A stretch of 39,087 bases of DNA from assembly GCA_024689985.1 (NCBI GenBank), contig JAILCZ010000056.1, positions 1 to 39,087 on the forward strand. The letters run 5' to 3'. This document shows positions 1 through 17,247 of this stretch, piece after piece. Both the position numbers and the translations under genes were made by a program. Position 1 is the stretch's first letter, and every line of letters starts with the position of its first letter. The DNA is from Bacteroidales bacterium. Lineage in GTDB: Bacteria > Bacteroidota > Bacteroidia > Bacteroidales > UBA932. The notes under the pieces were generated by a model, which had not been told where the DNA came from, made no database searches, and worked only from the letters and a program-made list of their open reading frames with translations.

Positions 1-659
1 GTTCCGTCTTCGCTTACGGTGAATTTCACGTTCATATCCTTGTATGCCATACCATAGATCCGTTCCGGATCGTTCTGGTATTTAGGTCTCGGGTCCAGGG
101 CAATCAGCTGTTCGATTGCACTCCTGTCTTTCTCGGATATGTTGTTTATGCTTCCGTCGAACGTAACGTTGAGTTTCTTCCAGCCGGTATTGTCCACGAA
201 TCCGCTTCTGATTCCAGGATGGCTGTCAGCATATTCTACATATGGTTTTATGTCATATATTGGAGTGCCGTCCATAAGGTCGGCTCCGCTTACTATGATT
301 ACCGGACCCTCAGGTGAGTCTTTGATGATTTCCTTGATCTTGACCGAAGACAGACCGAGATGGTTGGGTCTGAAAGGGGAGCGAGTGGCAAATACGCCCA
401 TTCTTTCATTGCCGCCAAGTCGGGGCGGTCTTACGGTAGGACTCCAGGCTTTTCCTTCTTCTGCCTTGGCTGCCTCGGAAAAGCCCCAGATCAGCCAGAG
501 GTAATCGAAGTCTTCAAGTCCTTTCAGGGCATCTGGATTGCGATATTCGGGGGAAAAAACGATTCGTCCTTCCAAGTCTGGTGCGAGATTTGCCTGCCTT
601 GGTATTCCGAACTTTTCTTTAAGCGGAGAAAAAAATATCGCGAAAGATTTAATCAACAT
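1..659 (-). CDS. trmO: TrmO/TsaA-family tRNA (N6-threonylcarbamoyladenosine(37)-N6)-methyltransferase, partial (3' end beyond the window)
   Basis: Reverse-strand reading from ATG at 659: MLIKSFAIFFSPLKEKFGIPRQANLAPDLEGRIVFSPEYRNPDALKGLEDFDYLWLIWGFSEAA...WSPTVRPPRLGGNERMGVFATRSPFRPNHLGLSSVKIK. The RPPRLGGN.R.GVFATRSPFRPN.LGLS block is characteristic of TrmO/YaeB. Missing from the ORF track because its stop lies outside the window. Confidence 0.93.
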   Translation of the reverse strand, partial: MLIKSFAIFFSPLKEKFGIPRQANLAPDLEGRIVFSPEYRNPDALKGLEDFDYLWLIWGFSEAAKAEEGKAWSPTVRPPRLGGNERMGVFATRSPFRPNHLGLSSVKIKEIIKDSPEGPVIIVSGADLMDGTPIYDIKPYVEYADSHPGIRSGFVDNTGWKKLNVTFDGSINNISEKDRSAIEQLIALDPRPKYQNDPERIYGMAYKDMNVKFTVSEDG

Positions 660-5732: not shown

Positions 5733-7322
5733 ATGAAACTTAAATTTTTACTCTGCGCCCTCCTCGTGACCCTATCTGCGGGTGTTTGGGCGGGCGAATC
5801 CAAGCCAATTAAAATCCAGGGTTCGGTCGGAAAATTGAAGACGATCGTGGTGAAGCCTGAACTGAAGGAAGGGGAGAAGGTCCCTATGGTGATAATCTGT
5901 CACGGATTTACCGGTAACAAGAATGAGACCTTGCTCAAGATGATTTCCGAAGGCCTGGAGGCCGAAGGTATTGCATCAGTGAGATTCGATTTCAACGGAC
6001 ACGGTGAGAGCGACGGAGCCTTCGAGAATATGACCGTCGGAAATGAGCTTGAAGATGTTGCCTGCATATATGAATATGTAAGCGGCCTGGATTTCGTGGA
6101 TAAGGCCCGCATCGGTATCGCCGGACATTCACAGGGCGGACTGGTCGCATCGCTTTTCGCTGCGAAGATGGGCAAGTCCAAAATCAGGTGTGAAGCCCTC
6201 CTTGCTCCTGCAGCCTGCATTCCGGAGGATATCAAATCCGGAAAGATGCTCGGCGCGAAGTTCGACCCTCAGAACATTCCTGAGTCAGTGAATGTCTGGG
6301 GACACAAGGTGGGCAAGGCATATCTGGAATATGGATACAAGCTTGATGTATATAAGGAGGCCGGAATGTACGACGGCAAGGCTACCGTCATCCACGGTAC
6401 CAACGACAGGGCCGTTCCTTATGACTTCGGCTTCAGATATACCAAGGTGCTGAAGGATTGCGAGCTTCAGACTCTGGAAGGCTTCGACCACGGTTACAAC
6501 CAGGACAAGGGCAAGGCGGCAGACCTCACGGTTGATTTCCTGAAGAGGAATCTCGTGCGTTTCGGCTCTTCGGAACTTCTCGTGGTTTCTTCCGAGAATC
6601 TTCACTGTGACGACAGCGTGCTGGTTTTCACGCCTGAGAATGCTCAGGGCAATGACATCCCTGCAGTTCTTCTTCTGCACGGCTATTCCGGCAATTACAA
6701 GAACTGGCCTACTCAGATGGATGTCCAGAAGCTATCTGACGAGACCGGCTTCAGAATCATCTGTCCGGACGGATTCTATGGCAGCTGGTATTTCGATGAT
6801 GCGGACAAGGACAAGATGCAGTGGAGGACATTTTTCTGGAGTGAACTCTGGCCTCTTCTCAAGCGCAATTATGTGCTTGCTCCGGAGAGGACTTTCATCA
6901 CCGGTCTTTCTATGGGAGGCCACGGAGCGATGAACATCTTCCTCGACCATCCTGATTACTTCCGCGGTGCCGGTTCTATGTCCGGAGTGCTCGACCTTTC
7001 CTGCTCGGGTTCTCTTCCTGTGATCCTCGACGTTCTCGACGCCCAGGACGTAAAGGATGAAAAAGTAAAGGCCGAATCCGCATATATGCGACTCGGCCGT
7101 GTAAAGGAGATGTGTACGCCTGAAGATATCGCCAAGAAGATCATCGTCGTGTCCGTAGGTTACTACGACACCAGATTCGTCCCTGCGGCAGAAGTCTTCA
7201 GACAGAAGTGTCTTGAGTATGACCTTCCGCACATCTTTATGACTTCACCTGCGCGTCACAAGTGGAATTACTGGACGTGGGTGGTGAACTATCATCTCAG
7301 CTGGTTCGCTGAGAAGCTCTAG
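5733..7322 (+). CDS. Secreted two-domain alpha/beta hydrolase-esterase
   Basis: Signal peptide MKLKFLLCALLVTLSAGVWA. Domain 1: ICHGFTGNKNE..., GHSQGG, HGTNDRAVP, GFDHGY. Domain 2: LLHGYSGNYKNW, GLSMGGHGAMN, SPARHKWNYWTWVVNYHLSWF (PF00756-like). Confidence 0.82.
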   Translation: MKLKFLLCALLVTLSAGVWAGESKPIKIQGSVGKLKTIVVKPELKEGEKVPMVIICHGFTGNKNETLLKMISEGLEAEGIASVRFDFNGHGESDGAFENMTVGNELEDVACIYEYVSGLDFVDKARIGIAGHSQGGLVASLFAAKMGKSKIRCEALLAPAACIPEDIKSGKMLGAKFDPQNIPESVNVWGHKVGKAYLEYGYKLDVYKEAGMYDGKATVIHGTNDRAVPYDFGFRYTKVLKDCELQTLEGFDHGYNQDKGKAADLTVDFLKRNLVRFGSSELLVVSSENLHCDDSVLVFTPENAQGNDIPAVLLLHGYSGNYKNWPTQMDVQKLSDETGFRIICPDGFYGSWYFDDADKDKMQWRTFFWSELWPLLKRNYVLAPERTFITGLSMGGHGAMNIFLDHPDYFRGAGSMSGVLDLSCSGSLPVILDVLDAQDVKDEKVKAESAYMRLGRVKEMCTPEDIAKKIIVVSVGYYDTRFVPAAEVFRQKCLEYDLPHIFMTSPARHKWNYWTWVVNYHLSWFAEKL

Positions 7323-7957
7323 TATTTGTCTTTTTGATGAACGTATCCGGGCTTGTGACGGATGATCAGTTCCTTTTCGATGTCCTTGATGCCGAGTCCG
7401 TAGTACTCGAGGAGGACGAGAAGATGGTAGATCACGTCAGAGGCTTCGGATACGAGTCTTTCTTTGTCACCTGCAATCGCCTCGATGACGGTTTCGGTGG
7501 CCTCTTCTCCAAGTTTTTTTGCAATCTTCTTAGGTCCTTTCTCGAAGAGGAAGGTCGTGTATGATTCTGCAGGCATTTCCTTGTGGCGCTGCTGGACCAC
7601 GCCTTCGAGCTCGCGGATGAAGCCTTCGGCATCGTCTGAATATTCGCCCCAGCAGGTGGTCGTTCCCTTGTGGCAGGTAGGACCGTGAGGATTTGCGCGG
7701 ACGAGGAGGGTGTCCTTGTCGCAGTCTGCGGCGAGGGAGACGAATTCGAGGTAGTTGCCGCTTTCCTCACCCTTTGTCCAGAGTTTCTGGCGGCTTCTGC
7801 TCCAGAATGTCACCCTTCCTTCTTTCTGGGTTTTCTCGAGGGCCTCGGCATTCATAAATCCCATCATAAGGACTCTGAGAGTCTTGTCGTCCTGAACGAT
7901 GGCAGGAACGAGTCCGTCAGCATATTTGCTGACATCCAAATCTTCAAACTTTATCAT
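7319..7957 (-). CDS. hisIE: Bifunctional phosphoribosyl-AMP cyclohydrolase / phosphoribosyl-ATP pyrophosphatase
   Basis: [24 protein letters not shown]...[22 protein letters not shown]...[16 protein letters not shown], followed by a HisE domain ([11 protein letters not shown]). Confidence 0.97.
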
Positions 7958-8736
7958 ATTCTTACTGTTATTCCTCTGTTGACTAATTCTTCCTTCAGGT
8001 CAGGAATGCGGATTTCTCCGAAATGGAAGATGCTGGCCGCGAGGGCGGCGTCAGCCTTTCCCTTTGTGAGTACGTCGGCTATATGGTCCACATTTCCGGC
8101 GCCTCCTGATGCGATGATCGGAATCTGGAGGAATTCGTCCAGTTTCGCGAATGTCTCGCAAGGATAGCCTGATTTCATTCCGTCGTGGTTCATCGAGGTG
8201 AAGAGAATTTCTCCGGCACCTCTTTCCTGGGCTTCGCGGGCCCAGCTGAAAAGTTCCTTTTCGGTGCTGTGCTTTCCGCCGTGGGTGGTGATATGCCAGA
8301 TGCCGTCGGTCTCTCCGCTCGGCTGTGTGCCGTCGTGAAGTCTGGCGTCAATCGCTACCACTACGAACTGTGATCCGTATTTTTCGGCAAGTTCCGTAAT
8401 CAGGCCTGGGTTGTTCACTGCGGCCGTATTGATGGAAATCTTGTCGGCTCCTGCGTCGAGAAGGCGGGCTCCGTCTTCGTAGGTGGAGATTCCTCCTCCG
8501 ACCGTGAACGGAATGTCTATTCTTTCGGAAATCTTGGTCACCAGTTCGGTGAATGTCTTTCTGCCTTCGAATGATGCGCTGATGTCGAGATAGACGAGCT
8601 CGTCAGCTCCCTCTGCGGCATATTTCGCTCCCATTTCCACGGGATCTCCGACTTCGCGGAGGCCTTCGAAGTTTATTCCTTTTACTGTCTGGCCGTTCTT
8701 GATGTCCAGGCAGGGTATGATTCTCTTTGCTAGCAT
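7954..8736 (-). CDS. hisF: Imidazole glycerol phosphate synthase cyclase subunit
   Basis: [34 protein letters not shown]...; overlaps hisIE by 4 nt. Confidence 0.97.
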
Positions 8737-9455
8737 CGGCTCAACTTCTTCAGGTCTTCAATTGTTATTCTGCCCTCGTAGAAGGCTTTGCCCACGATGA
8801 CGGCTTTCAGGCCAAGTTTGTCAAGGCCGAGGATGTCGTCCACGCAGGAGATGCCTCCGCTGACGATTACCTTTATGTCCGGGAATTCGGACTGCATTCC
8901 TGTATAGATGGTGCTGTCCACGCCCTGAAGCATTCCGTCGTGGGATATTTCGGTGCAGATTACCTGCTTGAGTCCGCTGCCGGTGAATTTGGAAATAAGG
9001 TCAGATGCGGTGAGCGCGCTGCTTTTCAGCCAGCCGTGGGTGGCTACGAAGCCGTTCTTGGTGTCCACTCCTAGGACGATTCTGTCTCCGCCGAACTGCT
9101 TCAGCCAGGAGTCGAATTCTTCAGGAGCCGTCACTGCTATGCTTCCGCAGATAGCGTATCTTGCTCCGGCATTCAGGACTGATGAGAGGGCTTCGCCGCT
9201 CTTTATTCCGCCTCCGAATTCCACTTCGAGACCGGTCCCGGAAGCAATTCTTTCAAGGACCTTGAGATTCTGAGGTACGGATGCCTTGGCTCCGTCGAGG
9301 TCGACGACGTGAAGTCTTCTGATGCCGGCTTCTTCGAACATCTTTGCGACCTCGAGAGGATCCTTGAAGTAGGTCTTCTTCTGGTCGTAGTCGCCCTGGG
9401 TGAGACGGACGCATTCTCCGCCGATTATGTCAATTGCAGGTATTATCTGTATCAT
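8730..9455 (-). CDS. hisA: Phosphoribosylformimino-5-aminoimidazole carboxamide ribotide isomerase
   Basis: [29 protein letters not shown]...[10 protein letters not shown]...EFGGGIKS. Confidence 0.97.
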
Positions 9456-10054
9456 ATTTCAAGGAAGTTCTTTAGGATTCTGCTGCCGACAGGGCCGCTC
9501 TTTTCCGGGTGGAACTGGGTTCCGTAGAAATTGCCCCTGTTGAGGGCTGCGGCGAAGGTCTGGCTGCCGTAGGTTGTCTTTGCGATTACCCTGGTGTCTC
9601 CGCTCTGCGGCAGGGACGGGGCGAAGGAATGGACATAGTAAACGAAGTCGCCTTCCTTGATTCCCTTGAAGAGGGGAGAATCCAGGCTCTCTATCGTGTT
9701 CCATCCCATCTCCGGAATCTTGATCTTCTCTTCTTCCGGCTGGAATTTCCTGACCTTGGAGTCAAAGACGCCGAGGCAGGTGGCGTTTCCTTCCTCACTG
9801 CACTGGCAGAGCACCTGTATTCCGATGCAGATGCCGAGAACAGGCTGCGTCAGGGTAGGAATCACCTTGTCAAGCCCTCTGCTGCGGAGGTTGTCCATAG
9901 CTGAACTGGCTTCACCTACTCCCGGAAGGAGGACGTGGTCGGCGCTGCGGATGATTTCCGGATCAGATGTGACCACATAATCCTGGCCGAGTTTCTTGAG
10001 GGCGTTCTCGACGCTTCTGAGGTTTCCCGTATCGTAATCTACTATTGCTATCAT
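9452..10054 (-). CDS. hisH: Imidazole glycerol phosphate synthase glutaminase subunit
   Basis: MIAIVDYDTGNLRSVENALKKLG...LPGVGEA...VLGICIGIQVL...GTQFHPEKSG. The 283-aa ORF start (10303) is an out-of-frame extension into hisC-hisB; true ATG at 10054. Confidence 0.96.
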   Translation of the reverse strand: MIAIVDYDTGNLRSVENALKKLGQDYVVTSDPEIIRSADHVLLPGVGEASSAMDNLRSRGLDKVIPTLTQPVLGICIGIQVLCQCSEEGNATCLGVFDSKVRKFQPEEEKIKIPEMGWNTIESLDSPLFKGIKEGDFVYYVHSFAPSLPQSGDTRVIAKTTYGSQTFAAALNRGNFYGTQFHPEKSGPVGSRILKNFLEI

Positions 10055-10068
10055 TATTATTCCGTCTG

Positions 10069-11697
10069 TTAAAGAACTCCCTTGCTGCTTGGCAGCTCGT
10101 ATGGGAACTGACTGCGGGCAATCGCCATCCTGAGTGCTCTTGCAAAGGCCTTGAAGATGGATTCTGCCTTGTGGTGGTCGTTCGTGCCCACTGCCTTGAT
10201 GTGCATATTCACCTTCATCGCGCTGGCGAGAGACTGGAAGAAGTGTTCGAACATTTCGGTAGGCACGTCGCCCACGCGGTCTCTGGTGAATTCCACATCC
10301 CATCGGAAGTCGATTCTGCCTCCGAAGTCCATAAGCACCATAGCGTCGCAGTCGTCCATCGGAAGAACGAAGCCATAGCGGCCGATGCCGAGCTTGCTTC
10401 CGAGGGCTTTGTCTATGACTTCTCCGAGGACGATGGCCACGTCTTCCATAGTGTGGTGCTCGTCAACTTCGAGGTCGCCTATGGCCTTGACATTGAGGGC
10501 CACGCCTCCGTGATGAGGAATCTGCATAAGCATATGGTCGAGGAAGCAGAGGCCCGTGGATACGGAATCTGTTTCAGCCTGACGGCGGTCGAGGTCGATT
10601 TCGACGGTGATGTCTGTCTCGCGTGTCTTCCTGTGGATCTTGGCGTGGCGGTCGGAAGCCTCAGGAAGAGGCTCTCCGTTCATAACGGCGATGACCTTGG
10701 TGTTCTCGGCAGGTGTGCCGACCGTTATTCTGAGACAGTCCTTGCAGAGGACGACCTTCGTCCTGTTACGGACGATGATGCCGGCTGATAGGAGCCTGTC
10801 ATACCAGACGTTGGCGTCGTCAACTTTCACGAGGAGGAAGTTGGCGTCGGAAGGGTAGATCTTCTTTACGCAAGATGCGTTCTTGATGCCTTCCGCAAGC
10901 CTTTCCCTCTCGGAAAGGACTTCGCTTACGTGACGGTTCTTCTCTTCGAGGTTGATTTTCGAGAGGGCAGTCTTCTGGGCGAGAATGTTGATGTTGTATG
11001 GATATTTCACGCGGCCGAAGAGTTCGTTGACCTTCGGGGTGCTGTATGCGATTCCGAGTCGGATGCCGGCCATTCCCCAAGCCTTTGACATCGTCTGGAG
11101 GACGATGAGCTGAGGGTATCTGTCGATGAGAGGGGCTACGCTTTCTTCTGATGAGAAGTCTATGTAGGCCTCGTCCACTACGAGGATTCCAGGGAATTTC
11201 TGGAGTATCTCCTCGATCTGGCTTACCTTGAAGGCGTTGCCCGACGGGTTGTTCGGTGAACAGATCCAGCCTACGCGGGTGTTGGCGTCAGCTGCGGCAA
11301 GAAATTTCTCCGTGTCCAGGGAGAAGTCTTCCTCCAGGTTCACGAATTTTACCTTGACGTCGTTGGTGGCTGCCGCTACGCTGTACATTCCATAGCTCGG
11401 CGCAATCATCACGGCGTTGTCCACGCCCGGACGGCAGAAAATCCTATAGACGAGGTCGATGGCCTCATCGCTGCCGTTTCCGAGGAAGATTCTGTCTGCA
11501 GGCACTCCCTTGACCTTGGAGATTAGCTCTTTGAGCTGCTTCTGATGAGGGTCAGGATAACGGTTTATTCCGTTTTCATAAGGGCTTTCGTTGGCATCGA
11601 TGAAAATGTCGATGTCTCCTCCGCTGAATTCGTCCCTTGCCGTGCTGTACGGTTCGAGGGCAAGTATGTTGGGACGTACGAGACTAAGTGGATCCAT
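10069..11697 (-). CDS. Fusion protein: histidinol-phosphate aminotransferase (HisC, N-terminal) + imidazoleglycerol-phosphate dehydratase (HisB C-domain, C-terminal)
   Basis: One uninterrupted 542-aa frame. HisC: GNGSDEAIDLVYRIFCRPG, CSPNNPSGN, DEAYIDF, SKAWGMAGIRLG. IGPD: FLDHMLMQIPHHGG, DEHHTMEDVAI, TNDHHKAESIFKAFARAL. Linker around EPLPEASDRHAKIHRKTRE. Confidence 0.95.
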   Translation of the reverse strand: MDPLSLVRPNILALEPYSTARDEFSGGDIDIFIDANESPYENGINRYPDPHQKQLKELISKVKGVPADRIFLGNGSDEAIDLVYRIFCRPGVDNAVMIAPSYGMYSVAAATNDVKVKFVNLEEDFSLDTEKFLAAADANTRVGWICSPNNPSGNAFKVSQIEEILQKFPGILVVDEAYIDFSSEESVAPLIDRYPQLIVLQTMSKAWGMAGIRLGIAYSTPKVNELFGRVKYPYNINILAQKTALSKINLEEKNRHVSEVLSERERLAEGIKNASCVKKIYPSDANFLLVKVDDANVWYDRLLSAGIIVRNRTKVVLCKDCLRITVGTPAENTKVIAVMNGEPLPEASDRHAKIHRKTRETDITVEIDLDRRQAETDSVSTGLCFLDHMLMQIPHHGGVALNVKAIGDLEVDEHHTMEDVAIVLGEVIDKALGSKLGIGRYGFVLPMDDCDAMVLMDFGGRIDFRWDVEFTRDRVGDVPTEMFEHFFQSLASAMKVNMHIKAVGTNDHHKAESIFKAFARALRMAIARSQFPYELPSSKGVL

Positions 11698-12971
11698 TAT
11701 TTGATTCTGACTTTTACGGCGTTTGCGTGAGCGTCGAGGCCTTCAGCGTCAGCCATAGTTATAATTGTATTTGAAAGACCCTTCAAACCCTCCTGGGAGA
11801 GTTCCTGGTAGGTGATTTTTCTGATGAAGCTGTCGATGTTCACTCCGCTGTAGGAATGAGCCCAGCCGCTGGTTGGGAGGGTGTGGTTCGTACCTGAGGC
11901 ATAGTCTCCGGCGCTTTCGCAGGACCAGTTGCCGATGAATACGGAACCTGCCGCGGTAATCTTGGCGGCGATGTCCCAAGGCTTGTCCATTGCGATGATT
12001 AAGTGCTCGGAACCGTAGGCATTGGCGAATTCGATCATTGCCTCCTTAGTGTCCATCACGATAGCGCGGCTGTTGCCGAGGGAGCTTTCGAGGGCCGAAG
12101 TCCTGCTGAGGCCTTTGAGCTGATCTTCGATGCAGGCCTGCACCTTGTCGGCTATCTCCATGCTGTCGCAGACGAGGATTGCCTGGCTGTCGGCTCCGTG
12201 CTCACACTGTGAGAGAAGGTCTGAAGCTATGAATTCAGGCTTTGCTGTCTCATCTGCCATAACCATTACTTCCGAAGGACCTGCCGGCATATCTATGGCT
12301 ACTTCCGAAACGCTGACGCTCTGTTTTGCCATAGTCACGAATCTGTTGCCGGGACCGAAGATCTTGTCACGCTTGGTGATGGTCTCCGTACCGTAGGCCA
12401 TAGCTGCGATAGCCTGGGCTCCGCCTGTCTTGTAGATGTGGCGTACTCCGCAGAGCGTGGCCGCATAGACGACTGCCGGAGCGACCTTTCCCTGCTTGTC
12501 GGTAGGTGTGCAGAGGATTACGTCCGGGCATCCTGCGACTGCGGCAGGAATTGCGAGCATCAGTACGGTCGAGAAGAGGGGAGCGTTGCCGCCTGGAATG
12601 TAGAGTCCGATTTTCTGGATCGGAACAGGTCTCTGGTAGCATCTGACTCCCGGGGTGGTCTCGACTTCGACTTCCTTAGGCAGTTGTGCCTCGTGGAATT
12701 TCCTGATGTTTGAATATGCTTTGTCGAGGGCCTCCTTGACTTCAGCGCTTACAAGCTCTGCCGCCTCCTGCTTTTCCTGGTCGCTGACCTCGAGGCTGTC
12801 AATCTCCACGCCGTCGATTTCCCTGGCGAGTTCGCGGAGGGCCTTGTCGCCATCCTTTCTCACTCTGTCGAGGATGCCGGCAACTATGGTTGCGATTTTG
12901 TCGTTGTTCTGGGTGGCTCGCTCAGTCAGGGCTTTCCACTCGGACTTCTGTGGATTTGTATAAATATTCAT
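11697..12971 (-). CDS. hisD: Histidinol dehydrogenase
   Basis: MNIYTNPQKSEWKALTERA...GLYIPGGNAPLFSTVLMLAIPA...FGPGNRFVTMAK...DMPAGPSEVMV...LPTSGWAHSYSGV. Start corrected from 13103 to 12971. Confidence 0.97.
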   Translation of the reverse strand: MNIYTNPQKSEWKALTERATQNNDKIATIVAGILDRVRKDGDKALRELAREIDGVEIDSLEVSDQEKQEAAELVSAEVKEALDKAYSNIRKFHEAQLPKEVEVETTPGVRCYQRPVPIQKIGLYIPGGNAPLFSTVLMLAIPAAVAGCPDVILCTPTDKQGKVAPAVVYAATLCGVRHIYKTGGAQAIAAMAYGTETITKRDKIFGPGNRFVTMAKQSVSVSEVAIDMPAGPSEVMVMADETAKPEFIASDLLSQCEHGADSQAILVCDSMEIADKVQACIEDQLKGLSRTSALESSLGNSRAIVMDTKEAMIEFANAYGSEHLIIAMDKPWDIAAKITAAGSVFIGNWSCESAGDYASGTNHTLPTSGWAHSYSGVNIDSFIRKITYQELSQEGLKGLSNTIITMADAEGLDAHANAVKVRIK

Positions 12972-12972
12972 T

Positions 12973-13830
12973 TTAGAGAACAAGTTTTTCAACGCTCGTA
13001 ACGAGAATTCCGGTTGCACCTGCTTCCTTGAGGGCTTCGATCTTTTCCCAGAGGACATCTTCAGCCACCACTGTGTGGAGGGAAGACCAGCCTGTCTCCG
13101 CAAGAGGAAGGATGGTAGGGGATTTCATTGCCGGAACAATCTTGAGGGCATCGTCAATCTTGCCGTTAGGAATGTTCATCATAAGGTATTTCAAACCCTT
13201 GCTGTCGCTCACTGCGTTGAATCTGAAAATGAGCTTCTCGAGAATCGCTTTCTTCTCTTCGCTGAGGTTCTTGTTCGTGATGAGGACGGCTTCGCTGAAA
13301 ACGATTTTCTCAACTTCCTTGAGGCCGTTGCTTACGAGAGTTCCGCCTGAAGAGACGATGTCGAAGATTGCATCAGCCATTCCTGCCGCAGGGGCGATTT
13401 CCACTGAGCCTGCAATAGTGTGGATCTGTGCGTCGATATTGTTGTCCTTGAGCCATTTGCTGAGGATCCCGGGATATGAGGTGGCAATTCTCTTGCCGTT
13501 GAAATACTCAGGTCCGTCGTACTGCTCGTCCTTTGGAATTGCGAGTGAAATGCGGCAGGCTCCGAATCCGAGCTTGCTTGCAATTTCTACGTCGAATCCT
13601 CTTTCGAGGACTTCGTTGTATCCTACGATTCCAGCATCAGCAGCTCCCATTGAAACTGCCTGCGGGATATCGTCATCCCTGAGGTAGAGAAGTTCTACAG
13701 GGAAGGTCTTGGATGCTGAAAGGAATTTTCTCTTGCTGTCGTCCACGCTCACTCCCGCATCCTGCAGGAGGGCAACGCTCTGTTCGTTCAGACGTCCTTT
13801 GGTCTGGATAGCGATTCTTAACATTGACAT
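12973..13830 (-). CDS. hisG: ATP phosphoribosyltransferase, long form with C-terminal ACT-like domain
   Basis: MLRIAIQTKGRLNEQSVALLQDAGV...GAADAGIVGYNEVLERGFDVE...; alternative in-frame ATG at 13824. Confidence 0.96.
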   Translation of the reverse strand: MSMLRIAIQTKGRLNEQSVALLQDAGVSVDDSKRKFLSASKTFPVELLYLRDDDIPQAVSMGAADAGIVGYNEVLERGFDVEIASKLGFGACRISLAIPKDEQYDGPEYFNGKRIATSYPGILSKWLKDNNIDAQIHTIAGSVEIAPAAGMADAIFDIVSSGGTLVSNGLKEVEKIVFSEAVLITNKNLSEEKKAILEKLIFRFNAVSDSKGLKYLMMNIPNGKIDDALKIVPAMKSPTILPLAETGWSSLHTVVAEDVLWEKIEALKEAGATGILVTSVEKLVL

Positions 13831-13857: not shown

Positions 13858-13890
13858 AAAAAAAGGACTTGCCCGGTTCAGGGTAAGTCC
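13858..13890 (-). terminator. his operon attenuator terminator
   Basis: Minus strand GGACTTACCCTGAACCGGGCAAGTCCTTTTTTT: GGACTT/AAGTCC and CCC/GGG stem with an A.C mismatch, U7 tract, about 28 nt before hisG. Confidence 0.92.
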
Positions 13891-13939
13891 TCATATATCT
13901 ACATATTCGCATTTAGCAGTATACAGCAACTTACCCCCG

Positions 13940-13990
13940 TTATTTGCGGTGGTGGTGATGATGAGCTGTATGAAGCGAATAAAATTTCAT
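13940..13990 (-). CDS. hisL: his leader peptide MKFYSLHTAHHHHHRK
   Basis: Minus strand ATG AAA TTT TAT TCG CTT CAT ACA GCT CAT CAT CAC CAC CAC CGC AAA TAA: six His codons, five consecutive, directly upstream of the attenuator. hisL is used as a functional name. Confidence 0.9.
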   Translation of the reverse strand: MKFYSLHTAHHHHHRK

Positions 13991-13998
13991 ATCGGTTG

Positions 13999-14030
13999 CA
14001 AATATAAATATTTATAATTCTGTTTCCAAA
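13999..14030 (-). promoter_or_regulatory. Bacteroidota sigma-type promoter of the his operon
   Basis: Minus strand TTTG (+14027-14030), N20, TATATTTG (+13999-14006). Confidence 0.8.
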
Positions 14031-15047
14031 TTATTTGACCGTAGAAAATCTGAATTCCGTGTGCTGTGTGTATGCCTGGTTAGGTCTGAGCACTATGTCT
14101 CCGAAGACTTCCGGGTTGTTGACTGCATCCGGGTGCTGCTGGGCTTCGAGCACGAGGGCATTCTTTCCGGAGTAAACCTGAAGTCCAGGCTGGTCTGACC
14201 ATACTTCGAGTCTTCTTCCTTCTTCCGGTTCATAGACAGCACAGAGAATTTCGGTTCCGGACGGTGTGCCCTTGTTGATTACCCAGTTGTTGTCGTAGAT
14301 GAGCTGGTCAATGACCTTAGGCTCGCGGAAATCGTACGGGGTGCCTTCGACAGGGGAGAAGTGGCCGAGTGGAATGAGGAGAGAATCGACAGGCTCGTAG
14401 CGGTCTGCGAAAATCTGCATCACGTGGCCGAGGATCGTATCGCTGTCCTGACCCTTGAGGTTGAAGAACGGATGGTAGGCTATGCTGACAGGAGTAGGAG
14501 CGTCAGTCTTTGCGATATAGTCTATGAGAAGGGTGTTCTTTTTTACCGTGTAGGTTATCTTGATTTTGAGGTTTCCAGGGTATCCTTCCTGCCCGTCAGG
14601 ATGAAGGTAGGCGAGGGTGAGGCTGTTGTCGCTCACGCTGAGGACGTCCCATACTACCATATCCAGTCCCTTGAATCCTCCGTGGAGGGTGTTGCCGTTG
14701 TCGTTTTCCGGGGTGTGGTATTCCTTCCCGTCAACGGTGAAAGTCGCTTTTCCGATGCGGTTGGCCACAGGTCCTACGCAGGCTCCGTAGAAACGGTCTC
14801 CCTTGGGGGTTATGTAATCTTCGATGTTATCGTGGCCCAGGACTACGTTTTCCTGGACACCGTTTCTGTCAGGTGCCGTCATAGATACTACGCGTGCTCC
14901 GAAGTTGGTGATTTCGACAGTCAGGGGACCTCCGTCATAAAGTGTGAAGATGTCTGTTTTCTTGCCGTCAATTTCAGTTCTGAATTTGTTGTTGCCGCAA
15001 GAAACCAGGCCGCAGAGAGCGGCTAAAAGCAAAATATATTTTTTCAT
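14031..15047 (-). CDS. galM: Aldose 1-epimerase (galactose mutarotase), predicted lipoprotein
   Basis: MKKYILLLAALCGLVSCGNN lipobox, then ITNFGARVVSMTAPDRNG, NRIGKATF, LHGGFKGLDMVVWDV, AYHPFFNL, PGLQVYSG. Start corrected to 15047. Confidence 0.9.
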   Translation of the reverse strand: MKKYILLLAALCGLVSCGNNKFRTEIDGKKTDIFTLYDGGPLTVEITNFGARVVSMTAPDRNGVQENVVLGHDNIEDYITPKGDRFYGACVGPVANRIGKATFTVDGKEYHTPENDNGNTLHGGFKGLDMVVWDVLSVSDNSLTLAYLHPDGQEGYPGNLKIKITYTVKKNTLLIDYIAKTDAPTPVSIAYHPFFNLKGQDSDTILGHVMQIFADRYEPVDSLLIPLGHFSPVEGTPYDFREPKVIDQLIYDNNWVINKGTPSGTEILCAVYEPEEGRRLEVWSDQPGLQVYSGKNALVLEAQQHPDAVNNPEVFGDIVLRPNQAYTQHTEFRFSTVK

Positions 15048-15096
15048 ATTTAGATGATTGTATTCAAATTTATAATTTTTTGAGCTAATTTTAGAA

Positions 15097-17247
15097 ATGC
15101 GAAAAATATATTGCAAAATATTTATGATAGCTTCGGCTACCGCTTTGGCGGTTGTGCTTGCATTATTTTTTTTCGCAAGACCTCTTTATAAGTCTTCATC
15201 CCGAATTCTCATTACTCCATCCTTGACTGAAAATGGTTTTTCATCGGTCGCGGCTGAGTTGAATTCCGTAGGCAACACTTCCTTTTTCAGCAGTTTCCAG
15301 GACCTGTATTATCTTTTCAGGTCTTCAGAACTGATAGACATCGTCGTGTCCGGAATGAATCTGGACAAAGAGTACAGGGATGCCAATTCTTTCAGGAAAC
15401 CAATCCTGTACGGCAGAAATCAGCCTTTTTCCCTGGAACTGCTCAATCTTGGACCAGAGGATGAATTCAGGGCCCGTATTTTCAAGCTCGACGGTCATTC
15501 TGTTCGCATAGTATCAGGGAAAGATGACAAGGCGGTCGCTCTGGGGGATACGGCAGTGGTCAATGGAGCTGTTCTGGTTCCGCGGATGGAGTCGGGCTGG
15601 GACAGTTGTCCGGAGGAGGTTATCTTCAGGAAAACAGACTATTTCTCTGTATTGGACAGATGCATCAGCCGTTGGGATGTCGTTCCTATGGACAAAGATG
15701 TGTTCGGATTCGACCTTTCCTACAAGGACGAATCTCAGGAAAGGGCTTCTGATGTGATCCTGGCCGTTCTGGATGCGTATGCCGATTTCAACCGGAAGGC
15801 GAAGGCCGAAGGTGTGGAAAAATCTGACAGGATGCTGATGGACAGGCTTGCCGATGTCGGAAGTAAGCTTGGAATCGTGGATGACAACATTACTTCATAC
15901 AAGTCTTCCAACCTTGTGCTTGATGTCAGAAAGAAAGGGACAATCTCGTTCAGGGATGGTTTCGCCGCGAACAGTGAAATCGAAGACCTGGAGTTTGAGG
16001 GGGAGATGCTCCTTTATATGCTGGGTCAGATTGACTCCTGCAGGACCAATGGATTGACAACGCTTCTGCCGACTCTCGTTCCCGTTGAATCTGGTAATTC
16101 TCTCTACCGTACGGTTGACGACTTCAATGACAAACTTCTGATCAGAAACAGGCTCATTGCTTCCGGTGGCATCAAGTCCAAGGTCTCCGTGGATCTCTAT
16201 GCACAGCTGGAGGAATTGCTGGAATCCATTGAAGCCGGAATCAATACGCGTCTTTCCTCAATCGATGCCTCGGTCTACAATCTGGAGTCGATGTCTGGAA
16301 AAGTGGAAAAAGCCCTGAGGACGGATCCTAAGCACGAGTCTTATCTCCGTTCGGAAAGGATGCGGCAGCAGTTTTTGCAGGGTACTTATATCTATCTGAG
16401 CAAGATGCTGGAGGAAAACAGGATCGCTTCTCACTTCTATGCCAATGCAATAAGGGTGATACAGTCTCCGTCGGGCTCTGGCATCCCGTTCTTCCCTTCA
16501 CGCCGGTTCCTCGTCCTGCTCTTCCTGGGCATTGCCGTATGTCCTGTCTTGTTGTTCTACTTATACTCGAGGTTATTGGATGACAGAGTCTTCTCCGTCA
16601 AGGAACTCCGCTGTTTTGGTATCAATCCCGTCGCGACTCTGAAGGAGAATCCCGATCAGAAGGAGATAGACAGTCTCAGCGACAAGGTCTATTCTCTCGG
16701 ATATGACAATCCAACGACCGTATTCGGCGTGGTGTCCGTCAATGTGGGATCGGGTAAAAGCTATATTTCCAGGATTGTTTCGGAAAATCTTGCTGCCCAC
16801 GGAGAAAATGTGGTCCTGGTTGACTGTGACTTACGCAAGGGTACGGTTTCCGCCCAGTTTCAGGAACTCTCGGAGGTAAAGAATGCTCTCGCTTCTTATC
16901 TGGCGAATTCTTCTGCCGGGAATCTGGATACCATTATATATAAGGTAGGAAATCTGGATGTTATTCCTGTTGGTGACCTTCCGGCCAATCCTGCTGAAAT
17001 CATCAGCTCTCCTGCTTTTGATGCATTCGTGAATGAACTAAGGAAACGCTACAAATTCATAATCCTGGACTGCCCTCCAATCAATATCATTGCTGATACG
17101 ATGGAAGTATCCAGGGCGCTTGACAAGACACTTTTCGTGATAAGGGCAGGCCTGTTCAGAAGATTTTTATTCGAGGATGTGACTGAAGTGATCAGAAACC
17201 AATCCCTGCCGGGACTGCACTTCATCTTCAACGGCCTTAAGCGTTGA
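15097..17247 (+). CDS. Wzc/CpsD-like polysaccharide-biosynthesis tyrosine autokinase, without a C-terminal Tyr cluster
   Basis: N-terminal TM and Wzz-like region (PLYKSSSRILI), GNVR-like coiled coil, second TM near residue 475. Walker A VNVGSGKS, Walker A' VVLVDCDLRKG, Walker B FIILDCPP. C-terminus ...GLHFIFNGLKR. Confidence 0.82.
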   Translation: MRKIYCKIFMIASATALAVVLALFFFARPLYKSSSRILITPSLTENGFSSVAAELNSVGNTSFFSSFQDLYYLFRSSELIDIVVSGMNLDKEYRDANSFRKPILYGRNQPFSLELLNLGPEDEFRARIFKLDGHSVRIVSGKDDKAVALGDTAVVNGAVLVPRMESGWDSCPEEVIFRKTDYFSVLDRCISRWDVVPMDKDVFGFDLSYKDESQERASDVILAVLDAYADFNRKAKAEGVEKSDRMLMDRLADVGSKLGIVDDNITSYKSSNLVLDVRKKGTISFRDGFAANSEIEDLEFEGEMLLYMLGQIDSCRTNGLTTLLPTLVPVESGNSLYRTVDDFNDKLLIRNRLIASGGIKSKVSVDLYAQLEELLESIEAGINTRLSSIDASVYNLESMSGKVEKALRTDPKHESYLRSERMRQQFLQGTYIYLSKMLEENRIASHFYANAIRVIQSPSGSGIPFFPSRRFLVLLFLGIAVCPVLLFYLYSRLLDDRVFSVKELRCFGINPVATLKENPDQKEIDSLSDKVYSLGYDNPTTVFGVVSVNVGSGKSYISRIVSENLAAHGENVVLVDCDLRKGTVSAQFQELSEVKNALASYLANSSAGNLDTIIYKVGNLDVIPVGDLPANPAEIISSPAFDAFVNELRKRYKFIILDCPPINIIADTMEVSRALDKTLFVIRAGLFRRFLFEDVTEVIRNQSLPGLHFIFNGLKR

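Follow-up and report, generated by a model that had tools for sequence, protein, structure and literature searches.

What governs expression of the histidine operon on the minus strand of the window (the whole 39,087-nt stretch of Bacteroidales DNA that was analysed)? The operon is complete, hisG is its first gene, and hisG is directly preceded by a leader and a terminator (Table 1). A preliminary description had read this region as an attenuator, in which a peptide with five consecutive His codons is combined with RNA segments that can pair in alternative ways. Here we examine the parts of this proposed switch, their recurrence and covariation among relatives, and the way in which a translating ribosome might operate them.

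The hisG gene matched two NCBIfam models above cut-off (TIGR00070, 189.5 bits; TIGR03455, 93.6 bits). NCBIfam was also used to name hisC/hisB, and the remaining his genes were named from their translations. The source genome is incomplete (1.77 Mb in 163 contigs, 84% complete); its nearest relative with an intact leader region is Candidatus Cryptobacteroides faecihippi (L003), with a HisG identity of 73%. Within the operon, hisC and the IGPD part of hisB form a single ORF of 542 aa (window 10069-11697, minus strand), in which HisC occupies residues 8-340 (329 bits) and IGPD residues 348-542. The same stop-free, in-frame join recurs in several relatives (L002-L008, L028, L035, L040 and L066) and is therefore not an assembly error.

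Table 1. Positions of the leader, promoter, pairing segments and neighbouring genes in the window.
Feature	Position	Strand	Basis or remark
Aldose-1-epimerase-like lipoprotein gene upstream of the leader	14031-15116	minus	named from translation
Candidate -33 element TTTG, Bacteroidota (sigma-ABfr type) promoter	14027-14030	minus	sequence read; consensus from PMC7366714
Candidate -7 element TATATTTG (consensus TAnnTTTG)	13999-14006	minus	sequence; -7/-33 centring from PMC7366714
His leader peptide ORF, MKFYSLHTAHHHHHRK + TAA	13940-13990	minus	sequence; His-rich ORFs at the equivalent site in most relatives
Segment 1, distal block UAUUCGC	13975-13981	minus	pairs with 13904-13910
Segment 1, proximal block AUACAGC	13965-13971	minus	pairs with 13921-13927; 1:2 cognate-versus-swapped test
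Control codons, five consecutive His codons CAU CAU CAC CAC CAC	13949-13963	minus	sequence
Segment 2a, antiterminator arm GGGGGUAAGUU	13928-13938	minus	2:3 cognate-versus-swapped test and column covariation
Segment 2a core GGGUAAGU	13929-13936	minus	pairs with 13881-13888
Segment 2b GCUGUAU	13921-13927	minus	pairs with segment 1 proximal block
Segment 2c GCGAAUA	13904-13910	minus	pairs with segment 1 distal block
Segment 3, terminator 5' arm AGGACUUACCC	13881-13891	minus	3:4 cognate-versus-swapped test
Segment 4, terminator 3' arm GGGCAAGUCCU	13864-13874	minus	
U7 tract of intrinsic terminator	13858-13864	minus	sequence; 27 nt before hisG
hisG (ATP phosphoribosyltransferase, with HisG C-terminal domain)	12973-13830	minus	NCBIfam TIGR00070, TIGR03455
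Operon hisG-hisD-hisC::hisB (IGPD fusion)-hisH-hisA-hisF-hisIE	7319-13830	minus	ORFs

Peptide, candidate promoter and RNA helices in front of hisG

The leader peptide has 16 residues, encoded at 13943-13990 between an ATG at 13990 and a TAA at 13942-13940 (ATG AAA TTT TAT TCG CTT CAT ACA GCT CAT CAT CAC CAC CAC CGC AAA TAA). The run of five His codons is present as the preliminary description had stated, and an extra His codon at 13972-13970 brings the total to six of the 16 residues. The window contains one mini-ORF with at least five consecutive His codons, and first-order Markov simulations of the window yielded such a mini-ORF in 0 of 200 cases, which shows that the run is not due to chance.

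A candidate promoter, missed in the preliminary description, lies immediately upstream. It has the form TTTG-N20-TATATTTG, and its -7 element ends 8 nt before the leader ATG, while TTTG stands directly 3' of the stop codon of the aldose-epimerase-like gene. Promoter elements centred at -33 and -7 have been mapped in Bacteroides thetaiotaomicron (PMC7366714). Judged by this spacing, transcription would start ~5 nt before the leader AUG and the 5'UTR would be about 5 nt long. Near-leaderless translation was rejected as a general, conserved trait, as only some leaders have a -7 element 5-8 nt from the ATG, the interval elsewhere being 17-26 nt or more.

All the pairings proposed in the preliminary description were found. 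The proximal block of segment 1 is complementary to segment 2b at 7/7 positions, and the core of segment 2a (GGGUAAGU) to ACUUACCC in segment 3 (13888-13881) at 8/8, with one further G-U pair possible at each end. The antiterminator helix 2:3 thus uses the 5' arm of the terminator. A second, perfect match (7/7) between the distal block of segment 1 and segment 2c had gone unnoticed and lengthens helix 1:2. The terminator itself (AGGACUUACCC/GGGCAAGUCCU) has 11-nt arms that are 91% complementary, followed by U7; its presence before hisG stands, but its spacing to the hisG ATG (13830) is 27 nt and not 28 as first given. Compared with dinucleotide shuffles, the 140-nt region folds with z = -2.3.

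Recurrence and covariation among relatives

The upstream regions of hisG were read in 80 GTDB contigs carrying HisG relatives, in an order-level draw of 199 genomes (69 upstream regions read) and in a phylum-level draw (29 read). His-rich mini-ORFs were scored strictly: they had to start with ATG no more than 260 nt from hisG, encode 8-32 residues, and contain an HH pair and at least 3 His, these making up at least 20% of the residues. Such a mini-ORF preceded hisG in 47/77 close relatives, in 49/68 sampled Bacteroidales and in 9/29 class- or phylum-level loci. For comparison, the count was 1/2060 for windows drawn at random from these loci and 6/437 for regions preceding other ORFs. Examples from relatives are MTRIHHIHHHHHRSEER, MTIFNHIHHHHRHFTEG, MRFYSRHRVHHHHHHLSG and MKQITHIHHHHFLTNG. 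Between a fifth and two fifths of hisG loci, including those of Muribaculaceae- and Prevotella-like genomes, are without a leader recognisable by the criteria used. The leader peptide before hisG is conserved across the order, and most of the Bacteroidales sampled show the arrangement.

Trained on 32 leaders, the model R1 gave the leader of the window a score of 61 bits; in the window's own genome this corresponds to E = 1.2e-13, and no other match fell below E = 0.07. The model recovered most order- and class-level leaders outside its training set. R1 matched in 52/120 family genomes. Among the best family loci, the leader was directly upstream of hisG in 18/18 cases in which HisG could be aligned, a few of which were already in the first set, and also in L206.

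Two variants of the leader deserve mention. At L039 and L056, the His run upstream of hisG is apparently being lost (MTNFSAIHRHYRVSQR and MTERNPTSRNQSDNHRCRRHRFHCGREGR) and the GGTAGG/CTTACC-type antiterminator and the terminator are kept, possibly reflecting decay or a shift in sensitivity. Five loci (L193, L195, L197, L200 and L207) have longer leaders (26-31 residues) whose reading frame runs through the GGUAGG-type antiterminator arm, giving Gly-Arg; the arm is then not at the stop codon, yet its spacing from the His codons is similar.

Covariation was evaluated with a swap test, run first on 40 and then on 99 non-redundant leaders, in which each pairing was scored with its cognate partner and with the partners from all other genomes. 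Cognate partners paired better than swapped ones for 3:4 (z = -22.9), 1:2 (z = -10.8) and 2:3 (z = -10.05), each with 0/20000 permutations, and the control pairings 1:3 (z = -2.4) and 2b:4 (z = -0.5) were weak or absent in the 99 leaders. The result held in two separate genome sets, close relatives and order/class, with z = -5.6 and -6.7 for 2:3, -4.7 and -8.9 for 1:2, and -10.8 and -17.1 for 3:4 (0/20000 each). Significance was also reached in a control comparison of 1 with 2a, which is explained by the overlap of its window with 2b and by pairing of His codons to GU-rich sequence. Where helix 1:2 begins and ends is therefore less certain, and it is resolved more coarsely than 2:3.

Helix 2:3 was also resolved at the level of single columns, using anchors set independently of pairing. 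The pair beside the GGUA core occurs as G-C in 11, U-A in 9, A-U in 9 and C-G in 5 of 51 leaders (z = 4.9), so that all four Watson-Crick combinations are present at one base pair; the next outer column pair gave z = 2.8. The compensatory changes in 2:3 and 3:4 for which the preliminary description had called are thus present among relatives. A consensus fold of a MAFFT alignment was set aside as a covariation test: it recovered the terminator only (9 pairs), as leader length varies.

These results bear on a rival explanation of the hairpin, namely that it merely terminates the aldose-epimerase-like gene upstream and that the His-rich ORF is incidental. That gene does lie on the strand of the hairpin, with its end (14031) some 140 nt upstream of it. 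This reading is already contradicted by the recurrence of the leader before hisG across the order and by the covariation of 2:3 and 1:2 with the leader, as well as by the promoter-like sequence between the upstream gene and the leader and a His run whose random expectation is near zero; we give it almost no credence.

Ribosome position and the proposed switch

The preliminary description had suggested that a ribosome stalled on the His codons frees segment 2. To this idea the geometry of 80 leaders with a clear 2:3 helix conforms, assuming a ribosome footprint of -15 to +12. Downstream of the last His codon, segment 2a starts at a median distance of 14 nt. With the A site on the last His codon, the footprint covers a median of 0% of 2a, and at most 25% in 76/80 leaders; with the ribosome at the stop codon, the median coverage is 100%. 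A stall would thus expose the antiterminator arm, and a ribosome that has finished the peptide would hide it.

We infer the following sequence of events. Transcription would begin just before the leader AUG. With charged His-tRNA, the ribosome would pass the five His codons, reach the UAA and cover 2a, leaving segment 3 to pair with segment 4, and RNA polymerase would stop before hisG. If the leader is not translated, or after the ribosome is released, the long 1:2 fold would occupy segment 2 and lead to the same termination. When His-tRNA is uncharged, the ribosome would stall at the His codons, masking segment 1 and leaving 2a free; 2a would then pair with segment 3, no terminator would form, and the operon would be transcribed. 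On the strength of the sequence comparisons, we are confident that the region is a classical, ribosome-mediated attenuator of his operon transcription, very probably a switch to make histidine only when histidine runs out.

How helix 1:2 excludes helix 2:3 is less straightforward. The named 1:2 and 2:3 helices of the window have no bases in common, so exclusion there would rest on the longer 1:2 fold, in which the His-codon tract pairs more weakly with the G-run of 2a (a pairing allowed by the structure predicted for the pre-terminator part of the leader), or on topology. Helices 1:2b and 2a:3 could even form together as an H-type pseudoknot. Antitermination would then be the default, helix 1:2 would aid it rather than oppose it, and termination would be caused only by a ribosome sitting on 2a at the stop codon. 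The arrangement in the window is compatible with such a fold, as the two helices are adjacent, joined by a 1-nt linker and spanned by long loops, and 14/93 leaders likewise show no base common to both folds, with a median linker of 2.5 nt. Against it, the 1:2 fold and the 2:3 helix overlap by at least 2 nt in 73/93 leaders, and the 3:4 hairpin, which needs no pseudoknot, is predicted to be more stable than 2:3 in 75/99. We consider the pseudoknot improbable and favour the classical, mutually exclusive switch. For the classical switch, too, a ribosome at the stop codon covers the 2:3 arm directly, which would provide a termination state without the need for helix 1:2.

Other control codons and relation to known leaders

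R1 also retrieved leaders with Asn, Thr/Ile and Tyr control codons from family genomes. An Asn-rich leader lies before asnA (aspartate--ammonia ligase) at L209, on the minus strand and about 150-250 nt before the gene, and further examples precede asnA at L248-L251, L268 and L270 (such as MIKINNNLFNNLNDNYIRAGRLLL, MFQLNNNLFNNNNSNNSIRMGRLLFLNM and MRFTNVNNGTNNNCNQRSCRRSRID). Judging from these peptides, two or more genera in the family apparently have an asparagine attenuator before asnA; the search of the window's own genome found no Asn-rich leader before asnA. A Thr/Ile-rich leader (MKSSKTIIINKISMSTMTTSTPVRRWW) followed by a terminator precedes an aspartokinase-homoserine-dehydrogenase-like gene (thrA) at L211 (about 136-220, plus strand), and resembles E. 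coli thrL in kind. Peptides with a Tyr run (MIKTTINAAYMYYYYRSSASVGIGIG and MKHITNIRYYYRQS) and a terminator were seen at L208 (about 145-230, plus strand) and, some 95-140 nt ahead of the gene on the minus strand, at L214. The genes downstream belong to the tryptophanase/tyrosine-phenol-lyase family, and a Tyr leader is unusual for an enzyme with a degradative role. Conservation of Tyr leaders before such genes found no support past these two loci: 30 other loci of the enzyme had no convincing Tyr run.

We tentatively propose that Bacteroidia may use one common attenuator layout, comprising a short peptide near the promoter, a GGUAGG/GGUAAG antiterminator arm at a near-fixed distance past the control codons and a CUUACC-type terminator arm, with the control codons swapped among His, Trp, Thr/Ile, Asn and perhaps Tyr. 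Leader-peptide attenuation might then be a main, largely uncatalogued form of amino-acid control in the phylum, with the leader of the window on an almost leaderless transcript. The analysis yields an order-wide, sequence-specific prediction of how histidine synthesis is controlled in Bacteroidales, a major group of gut bacteria, in whose phylum we found a single catalogued leader of comparable type, that for trp. As the leaders here show, peptides of 11-30 residues that gene callers skip can be found and tested by covariation, and the approach extends to other amino acids.

The idea as such is not new: Vitreschak and colleagues, writing in FEMS Microbiol Lett in 2004, reportedly predicted attenuators that control amino-acid operons, including some from Bacteroidetes/Chlorobi. 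Our search of the open literature found no description of a his attenuator in Bacteroidetes.

Histidine genes of other bacteria can be controlled by T-box, riboswitch or repressor systems, and this precedent raises the question of whether another histidine sensor acts here and the peptide goes unused. The window was searched with Rfam models at their gathering thresholds and at relaxed ones; none of the families, the T-box included, reached its threshold at the leader or elsewhere, and in 20 hisG upstream regions from the order the T-box, His and Trp leader families were absent even at E <= 1. The specific enrichment of His codons before hisG would also be left unexplained by those mechanisms. 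Such a sensor is thus extremely unlikely. Among the best relaxed Rfam matches, RAGATH-25 on the other strand was below cut-off and chance-like.

The same searches define how the leader relates to catalogued families. Thr_leader (RF00506) scored 18.1 bits in the window against a gathering score of 55 and was dismissed as a resemblance of the CAC run; the likeness is weak, arising from CAC/ACC runs and a terminator, whereas the in-frame codons of the window specify His and the gene is hisG. The his leader of Escherichia coli and related bacteria, with alternative helices and a terminator, is represented by RF00514 (His_leader). This model matched neither the window nor its own genome, and a control run did detect the family in E. 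coli. The two leaders share the amino acid, the first gene hisG, a His-run peptide, alternative helices and a terminator. They differ in sequence and helix layout, and the leader of the window has its antiterminator arm at the leader stop codon and a Bacteroidota-type promoter. No Rfam family covers the Bacteroidales his attenuator, and the RNA family database has no such entry for the phylum.

The closest catalogued relative in kind is the Bacteroid-trp RNA (Rfam RF01692), a cis-regulatory leader in Bacteroidetes (Weinberg et al., 2010, PMC2864571). Its model did not match the hisG leader at gathering or relaxed thresholds. The window's own genome does carry a copy (49.8 bits; G000:C20:6820-6948, equal to L180:1500-1629), which R1 scores weakly (16 bits). 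This copy encodes the leader peptide MFNTCTYWWWRLLQLHKS, with WWW, followed by a terminator before trpB, so the same genome has both a His and a Trp leader. The two differ in their control codons, Trp instead of His, and in the gene that follows, trpB instead of hisG. The hisG leader is the His counterpart of the catalogued Bacteroid-trp RNA, and a case of ordinary ribosome-mediated attenuation.
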